DNA of 64,000 nt from an uncultured Gammaproteobacteria bacterium (GTDB lineage: Bacteria; Pseudomonadota; Gammaproteobacteria; Eutrophobiales; Eutrophobiaceae). The notes under the pieces are model-generated. The model had not been told where the DNA came from. It saw only the letters and a program-made list of their open reading frames with translations, and ran no database searches. The stretch is taken from assembly GCA_951812995.1 (NCBI GenBank), contig CATOTD010000001.1, positions 62,001 through 126,000 on the forward strand. Reading direction: 5' to 3'. Both the position numbers and the translations under genes were made by a program. Position 1 is the first letter of the stretch. The number at the start of each line of letters is the position of its first letter. This document shows positions 9,161 to 61,966 of the stretch, piece by piece.

Positions 9161-10243
9161 AGGCAACCTCTATTAATGCAATCACTTTCCAATTTATTGG
9201 CTCAGAGAGGTTAAAAAAACCAATTTGATCCAAAAAGCCGGTAGTGTCCGTACAGCCCTTGTCTCGGCTTTACTTCGTTTTCAAGACGCACTGACCCGTG
9301 CCAGAAAGCATAAACGCCTCATGTTGTACCTTAGATTCATCAAACCGATATGCATGTTTGTGCGCGTAATGCCAATGCAAGGAACCGCTTTGCGGTGTAA
9401 ATTGCGCTGTGCTCCAAACACAGGTTCGACCCGACTACGAACTTTGGAGCGCGTGCGCTTACCTTGCGCCTTGAGAAACGCTACTTTTTCCTCTGACCGA
9501 TAGGCACTGTCAGCCCAGACATCTTTACTGGTATTGCTGTCATCTGGCAGGTCGGCAAAAACCTGCGCATCATGGACGCTGGCATCAGTGACCTGATAGT
9601 CACGAATCAACTTGTTGTCATGGTCTATCTGTATGTGGTTCTTGTAAGCAAAATGGCTACGGCTATGTTTCTTCGTCCAGCGGGCCGGGACAGTGCCTGC
9701 CTTAATCCGGGCATTGTATTCCCGAAGGTTACGCGGCAACAGTGCCGGAATGATCGAGGAGGCAACTATCTGACCCTTGCGAGTGATATAAGCCGCCTGG
9801 TTCAACGACAACTGCTCAAACAACGATGCCATCAGACCCAGCGCCGCTAACCGATGCTTGAATGCCCAGCAGGTTTTGGTATCAGCGACTCGTTGCTGCC
9901 TAGCAAGACCCAGAAACTGCTGAAAACTGCAACGGTCTTCGATTTGGTATTCCAACTGAGCATCGCTAAGACCATACAGATTTTGCACAAGCAGTCCCTT
10001 GAACATCATCACTACGTCTGTTGGGCGTTGCCCGCCTGACGCTTACGTTGTTTCTCATGAACCTTGTTCAACAACGACCGAAAAGCTCCCTAGTCAACCG
10101 TCTTTTCCAGTTCAGGCAGAGGATTACCCAACTGTTTGAGACGATAGTCTTGAAGATTAAACAGAGAACCGAAAATGTCATTGCTCATGGAAGTTTCTTT
10201 GTCAGTTTGGAAACTTCAACATTGTAACAAATAGAGTCATTAA
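9161..10243 (-). mobile_element. IS5-C, degraded IS5-family element
   Basis: Terminal repeats ACCTCTATTAATG occur inward-facing at about 9165 and 10243. The transposase pseudogene runs from ATG 10188 ([20 protein letters not shown]) to about 9281. It has a TAG at about 10090, a frameshift at about 10025, and an apparent internal deletion before the last catalytic segment RSKVRSRVEPVFG. Remaining motifs include QIVASSIIPALLPR (the expected catalytic Asp is not seen here) and DVWADSAYRSEE. It cuts speD. Confidence 0.8.
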
Positions 10244-12296: not shown

Positions 12297-12418
12297 TATG
12301 CTTGTGGTGCGAGGGCGTACCAGAACCGCTATACAGTTTATTTGTCCGTAGCAAACGACCGCAAGATAGCTTGCACAGATCGTAACGTTGCCCAAGCTAA
12401 TAGGGTTTTTTATATATC

Positions 12419-12706
12419 GAGACCTTTGCACTAAAGCACTACTAGTCTGGCTTGACCTACGTTCAATCCGGCCCGTCTCGAATCAAGCCCAGCTCAGATC
12501 AACCTAGCTCAACTTGACTCCGCCCGCCCAACTCAGATCAACCCAGCTCAGCCCGACCCGTTTTGACCCAGCCCAACCCGACTCGAACCCCGCCTAGCTC
12601 AGATCAACCCGACCCCGATCAGCCCGGCCCGACCCACGGCGGGCATCTGGAAATCAAACCATTGCCGGGATAATATTCAAATGAGGTGTTTTGTGCAAAG
12701 GACTCA
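12419..12706. repeat. IR-bounded non-coding element filled with degenerate 5-bp repeats
   Basis: The ends are inverted copies of each other: GAGACCTTTGCACTAAAG at 12419 and, read inward from 12706, GAGTCCTTTGCACAAAAC (15 of 18 identical). Between about 12460 and 12640 the sequence is a degenerate pentamer array; on the minus strand it steps through units such as GGGTT, GATCT, GAGCT, GGGCT. It carries no gene. It behaves like a MITE or a REP-like element. Related sequence occurs at 60002-60324. Confidence 0.6.
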
Positions 12707-12875
12707 AGCGATAACCGCAACGCTGTCATTTACGGCGATAAAAAAATAAAATGGCCGCAAAACCCGTTTATTCGACTTAACGGGACAACAATGATTTCAC
12801 ATACAAAAAATTACCGTTATCATAAGCCACAAGATAATTTGTACCGGTCATTCTTATTTAACAACGTTGCCGTTC

Positions 12876-60001: not shown

Positions 60002-60324
60002 GCGGTGTGCGGTTGGGTGTCGTCGGCTCGGGTCAAGCGTGGTCGGGCTGGGTTGGACGTGGGTCGGGTATCGTCGTCTACGACCAGTACAAGCGGCACC
60101 ACACTGACCAGCGATGCGCAGTGGCTTATCCGTCTCGCCTGCTGTCGTCTCGGGCTGGGTTGATCTGAGTCGAATCAGGTCAAGCGTGTTCGGGCTGGGT
60201 TGGACGTGGGTCGGGTTGAGCTGGGTCGGGCCGGGCGTGGTAGAGTCGAGTCAGGATGAAAAATGATCTTCAAGGAACGGGACTTTATTGTAATAAACCA
60301 GTACCACTTTAGGGCAAAGGTCTC
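60002..60324. repeat. Degenerate 5-bp repeat region with a 38-bp direct repeat
   Basis: The 60002-60255 part steps in units of five (TCGGG, CTGGG, TTGAT, CTGAG...). A 38-bp word beginning GTCAAGCGTG occurs at 60032-60069 and 60179-60216 with one mismatch. The region ends with CTTTAGGGCAAAGGTCTC (60307-60324), matching the end of the element at 12419-12706. No gene. Confidence 0.6.
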
Positions 60325-61760: not shown

Positions 61761-61966
61761 ATTAAAAATGCCCAACAAGGCACTACATGCGGACAAATTT
61801 TCTGCGGTGCTCCAAATTTGCCACGGAGTAAGACGTTAAGAGTCAGCCGCAAGCAACCAACTTTAACAGGATCGCAGCGGACTTGTTTTATTTGCTATGA
61901 CCTTTGGTTTAGTGACCACTTTTTCAAAACCTTAACCAATCTGTTGTGCTGTGCAAAGGTCTCGGC
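61761..61966. repeat. Gap with another GTGCAAAGGTCTC end
   Basis: No supported gene; a weak open frame on the plus strand ends NLLCCAKVSA. GTGCAAAGGTCTC at 61951-61963 matches the ends at 12419, 12693 and 60312, so an old IS or MITE end is likely. Confidence 0.35.

Follow-up and report, generated by a model that had tools for sequence, protein, structure and literature searches.

The 64-kb window is the whole stretch of DNA that was analysed (64,000 nucleotides). Within it, a non-coding element is flanked on the left by a carbonic anhydrase gene and a small lipoprotein-like gene, and on the right by dusB (Table 1). The preliminary description had placed the element between the carbonic anhydrase operon and dusB, with ends matching in 15 of 18 positions, an interior of about 180 bases in five-base steps, and no coding capacity. 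The neighbours are as stated, and no convincing reading frame was present inside. Direct comparison of GAGACCTTTGCACTAAAG (12419-12436) with GAGTCCTTTGCACAAAAC, read from 12705 on the minus strand, again gave 15 matches in 18 positions. The core was located by a five-state HMM, and its lag-5 signal lay beyond that of all shuffles. The left end of the proposed span, 12419-12706, is correct; the true right end is 12705, and the length is 287 bp. The terminal inverted repeat of the family is 13 bp. A lone exact terminal repeat, GTGCAAAGGTCTC, was also seen at 61951-61963 of the window, with no recognisable left-end (LE) or right-end (RE) module.

Table 1. Features of the element, its flanks and the second, partial copy in the window
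Feature	Position	Strand	Basis or remark
MITE copy from end to end, 287 bp	12419..12705	+	terminal repeats; member of the family
Left terminal inverted repeat GAGACCTTTGCAC	12419..12431	+	exact family 13-mer
Left-end module (LE), family consensus GAGACCTTTGCACTAAAGCGATACTTGTCC	12419..12456	+	LE model R2 match C1:74419-74456, E=3.5e-8
Degenerate pentamer array, unit YYRRC on + strand	12463..12636	+	five-state HMM and autocorrelation
Right-end module (RE), reading inwards from right terminal repeat	12629..12705	-	RE model R1 match C1:74629-74705, E=9.8e-20
Right terminal inverted repeat GAGTCCTTTGCAC, 1 mismatch	12693..12705	-	matched to family repeat
G-quadruplex motif GGGTTGGGCTGGGTCAAAACGGG	12557..12579	-	motif scan
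G-quadruplex motif GGGTCGGGCCGGGCTGATCGGGG	12613..12635	-	motif scan
Left flank ATATC	12414..12418	.	not duplicated in the right flank, AAGCG at 12706-12710
Box ATTACCGTTATCATAAGCCA upstream of dusB, common to congeners	12810..12829	+	synteny break between box and element
Second, partial window copy	60011..60324	-	LE 60297-60324; arrays 60150-60255 and 60011-60069; no RE detected
G-quadruplex motif of second, partial copy	60208..60230	+	motif scan

The core consists of degenerate pentamers. At lag 5, the window copy has an identity of 0.51 at the level of bases and 0.83 at that of purine/pyrimidine classes. The maxima of 2000 dinucleotide shuffles over lags 3-12 were 0.45 and 0.66, respectively, so that every shuffle fell short of the window copy. 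Tandem Repeats Finder returned only short period-15 fragments, owing to the degeneracy of the units. Copies were then read as individual stretches of the host genome, and the five-state model trained on copies delimited 81 arrays of 29-473 bp. The results showed that the unit YYRRC is composed of C/T (67/31%), C/T/A (75/13/11%), G/A/C (43/39/16%), A/G (57/40%) and C (84%), so that its purine/pyrimidine frame reads Y 98%, Y 88%, R 82%, R 97% and C 84%. There were 163 distinct units, the commonest being CCGAC, CCAGC, TCAAC, CCAAC and TTGAC, and identity between units was approximately 0.54. Adjacent units were less alike than shuffled units (lag-1 z approximately -10), and even lags mostly exceeded odd lags; this alternation is beyond what simple slippage predicts. 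The length of the array is variable and its layout is not fixed, and longer internal duplications were visible in the arrays of three stretches (L189, L012 and L029).

The element belongs to a family in the host genome. A nucleotide search of this genome with the element gave 80 matches. There were 41 occurrences of the 12-mer GAGACCTTTGCA and none of its reversed control; the 13-bp terminal repeat occurred 35 times, with 0 for the reversed control and 0-1 per genome in 11 congeners. At E<=0.01, the end models gave approximately 60 RE matches and 70 LE matches in the host genome, and the two end sequences are distinct beyond their common terminal repeat. Most ends are unpaired, some of them because the partner has decayed or an insertion sequence is nested in the copy (as in L031 and probably also in L040). 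The preliminary description, which had spoken of MITE-like ends, named the lack of further paired copies in the genome as the outcome that would count against it. The opposite was found, with 22 paired copies available for flank analysis and dozens of single ends, and five of the pairs carry perfect 5-bp target duplications, which bears out the MITE-like reading. The orientation of the array is constant: 88 junctions between array and end were in the correct sense, and a further 12 in the opposite sense are accounted for by short hits to the terminal repeat that LE and RE share. Among 21 copies checked, 14 had no frame of at least 120 aa crossing an end, whereas 79% of nearby random positions fall inside such frames; this indicates that the copies are mostly intergenic.

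The five perfect direct repeats among the 22 paired copies were AGCAT, GGCCT, GCATT, GCATT and AGACT; the copies concerned lie at C1:49504, C2:760968, C2:600249, C2:797643 and C8:27904. Over all pairs, 68 of 110 flank positions matched, compared with 41.3 on random re-pairing, and 0 of 10000 re-pairings were as good. The flanks show a preference for AGNCT. Several paired copies have no target duplication, and the window copy is one without it (1 of 5 flank bases matching). Elements bounded by this terminal repeat and carrying 5-bp duplications were also found in LS06H_Bin4, Thiomicrorhabdus, Thiotrichaceae, Marinomonas, Arenicella and Flavobacteriaceae. In the first three of these, the repeat bounds 159-bp MITEs, many with 5-bp duplications and none with an array (the stretches behind this observation include L059, L061, L077, L079, L082 and L105).

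Two autonomous elements with these ends were found in other organisms. In Flavobacteriaceae CAR3_bin_11 (L085), the terminal repeats bound a 1401-bp element with the duplication TATAT and a single transposase of 367 aa, which belongs to the IS5 family (NCBIfam NF033581, E=1.6e-72; Pfam domain DDE_Tnp_1). In Arenicella (L143), they bound 1202 bp with the duplication AGCGT; the transposase frame of 181 aa is shorter than the L085 protein, and the left end has its first 18 bases in common with the LE of the host genome. The host genome itself holds remnants of such a transposase. One, at C1:301392-301649, has 72% identity to the L143 protein and three stops, in the order RE - array - transposase. 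A second, small remnant has 60% identity to the same protein and two stops. At C3:1744, the order is LE - transposase N-terminus - array. Besides the two remnants, none of the host-genome matches listed exceeded 33% identity to the L143 protein, and no intact matching transposase was found in this genome. Since only one remnant has the array together with RE to one side of the transposase, the layout of the parent is a reconstruction: the autonomous element probably read LE - transposase - pentamer array - RE and would now be dead in this genome.

Other candidates for the parent were rejected. The IS at 9281-10012 of the window is IS5-like, yet no GAGACC-type end lies nearby. The 1388-bp interval in L031 was considered as an autonomous copy but proved to be a MITE that contains a nested, unrelated IS5 element. 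The L040 gene, which we take to be IS256-like, most likely lies nested within a left end. Unrelated IS5-family elements ending in GGAAGCCTCTAAAAACC apparently have more than 100 copies in the host genome (for example, L031 2300-3480, L036 51-1208 and L263 from 2345). Many of them share an in-frame TAG (REKLT-stop), where L263 has CAG. This points to amplification in trans of a defective lineage or, alternatively, to readthrough of the TAG.

The pentamer core has a narrower distribution than its ends. A strict word of five units occurred 226 times in the host genome and 0 times in 11 congeners; in all other same-family genomes searched, it was found in one place only. The relatives serve as the control for this word; the reversed word is unsuitable, since it also matches these arrays. 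The array was absent from all 103 retrieved stretches that carry the terminal repeat in other organisms. An exact search for LE in viral contigs gave no match. A match in a plasmid of Mycetohabitans endofungorum was rejected as a relative, being an ordinary (CAGCC/CAGCT)n microsatellite. It is intergenic (L265 1484-1598; L266 1363-1573), and its length differs between the two strains.

Overall, the window element is an IS5-family MITE that has been orphaned, and its pentamer core is degenerate, oriented and G-quadruplex-prone; the element is of a known kind, and the core is new. The element has the length (287 bp, within the range of 50-1000 bp) and the terminal inverted repeats of a MITE and lacks a functional transposase, its copies are dispersed, and the 5-bp target duplication is evident at the level of the family. 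The IS5 origin follows from its ends, which match those of the autonomous elements in L085 and L143 and those of the host remnants. We are highly confident that it is a non-autonomous, internal-deletion derivative of an autonomous IS that carried the pentamer array. An IS with the order LE - transposase - array - RE would have given rise to the MITE by internal deletion, and its transposase, acting in trans on the GAGACCTTTGCAC ends, would have moved the MITEs. Insertion would have been mostly intergenic, with 5 bp of target duplicated, preferentially of the form AGNCT. We infer that this mobility has since ceased, and that the array has grown by block duplication of pentamers and hitchhikes on the element instead of serving transposition.

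The paired ends might be due to chance, or to a non-mobile repeat spread by recombination alone, and many unpaired ends and several copies without target duplications would suit this. The 12-mer counts (41 against 0), the 5-bp duplications and the same ends on IS5 elements elsewhere have already refuted it, and we give it almost no weight. A further possibility concerns only the core and is compatible with the MITE reading: an ordinary pentanucleotide microsatellite, present by chance in the founder IS, has decayed. We consider the chances of this evenly balanced. Real bacterial pentanucleotide microsatellites exist, such as that of Mycetohabitans, and the longer duplications in L189, L012 and L029 fit such an origin. 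However, slippage alone does not give 163 units with a preserved purine/pyrimidine frame and unlike neighbours, and the array does not consist of the near-identical tandem units of a microsatellite.

The array may also be a functional and selected module, either a G-quadruplex/i-motif or a protein-binding one, which was spread by the MITE and acts on transcription, replication or recombination near genes. The opposite strand of the array reads GGGNN-like. A G-quadruplex motif was present in 50 of 81 arrays, compared with 24 in dinucleotide shuffles. The window as a whole has just three such motifs, all within its two copies. The kept purine/pyrimidine frame and the avoidance of likeness between adjacent units point in the same direction. 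However, permutation of the units gave an equal number (51.8), and unit composition thus accounts for the motif. The same holds for folding of the G-strand RNA, with z of -4.3 against dinucleotide shuffles and -0.9 against unit permutation. The variable length and unfixed layout also speak against function, and we regard selection as unlikely. It is equally doubtful that the array is a transposon-borne, selected and strand-oriented G-quadruplex/i-motif track, preserving its frame as individual bases change, and that the dispersal of this track drives chromosome rearrangement or local regulation in the species. A structured RNA was rejected: the Rfam search of the element gave zero family matches, RE has no conserved fold, and the strong folding of the G strand is explained as above. 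Hitchhiking with block duplication remains our default for the core. Neighbouring units are less alike than chance, which argues against hitchhiking alone, so the array could have some role.

The site next to dusB may record a rearrangement. In several congeners, dusB is preceded by another gene, presumably of the DUF3426 type, and the carbonic anhydrase gene is not there. The host counterpart of this upstream gene lies on another contig (C8:101506-101967), and LE and an array begin 25 bp past that match (C8:101506-102250; L263, L231). The C8 gene and the window dusB each adjoin a copy; thus, both sides of the broken ancestral junction border the family. The simplest reading, which is suggestive only, is that recombination between copies may have parted dusB from its ancestral upstream gene and removed the target duplication of the window copy. 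The C8 copy is flanked by ATTTT, which does not match the right flank AAGCG of the window copy and is unlike a clean reciprocal exchange, and no RE was detected there. From the right end to the box at 12810, approximately 100 bp have no recognisable counterpart in relatives. No pair of filled and empty sites was recovered, as gene order around dusB differs in the 11 congeners and is not collinear with the host.

The preliminary description could not name this combination of ends and core. The closest named structure is the BrickBuilt MITE of Porphyromonas gingivalis, to which the only full-text literature match of GAGACCTTTGCA led (PMC4596501); for the degenerate pentamer core, no named match was found. 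BrickBuilt has IS5-type terminal repeats, a leader, a core of 23-nt minisatellite repeats and a tail. Its 19 copies are intergenic, variable in core length and without transposase, GAGACCTTTGCA occurs in copies 4 and 5, and its target duplications vary (CT, GAAA, AAAAA) (PMC4596501). The two families share the IS5-type end GAGACCTTTGCA, distinct leader and tail modules (here LE and RE), a tandem-repeat core of variable length and intergenic location. They differ in the repeat, regular and 23 nt long there but degenerate with period 5 here, and in the host, which is a member of Bacteroidota for BrickBuilt. No BrickBuilt copy has a transposase remnant, whereas here remnants adjoin ends and array. 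By its terminal repeat and layout, the present family would thus be an analogue of BrickBuilt, not a member, given the different repeat unit. ISNme1 of Neisseria meningitidis, as cited in PMC4596501, likewise is of the IS5 family, with the terminal repeat GAGACCTTTGCAAAA and a MITE derivative, ATR; that account describes ATR as AT-rich and contains nothing suggesting a pentamer core, which would set it apart. The elements in L085 and L143 and the 159-bp MITEs of LS06H_Bin4 have the same terminal repeat and 5-bp duplication but no pentamer array. The Mycetohabitans endofungorum repeat shares the 5-bp period and has units within the YYRRC class, but it has two main unit types in near-exact tandem at one place per plasmid record, and no terminal repeats of the host MITE kind were seen. 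In a 2024 review of prokaryotic MITEs (PMC10969869), we found minisatellites mentioned only in the cited title of the BrickBuilt paper.

With the present family, an IS5-type MITE that combines the GAGACCTTTGCA end with a tandem-repeat core is now known from two unrelated phyla, one case in each, which suggests that such cores may recur in this IS group. Unlike in BrickBuilt, remnants with array and ends attached indicate the position of the core in the parent. Dozens of oriented, G-quadruplex-prone arrays, two of them at a broken ancestral junction, also offer a natural test system for array-promoted rearrangement. Elsewhere in the host genome, a block that has a tmRNA-like 3' end and is followed by LE occurred three times (C3, C7 and C9), partly near contig ends. 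It lies at L036 1640-2170, in L042 from approximately 1440 and in L047 from 3900, and L036 also contains a transposase remnant.
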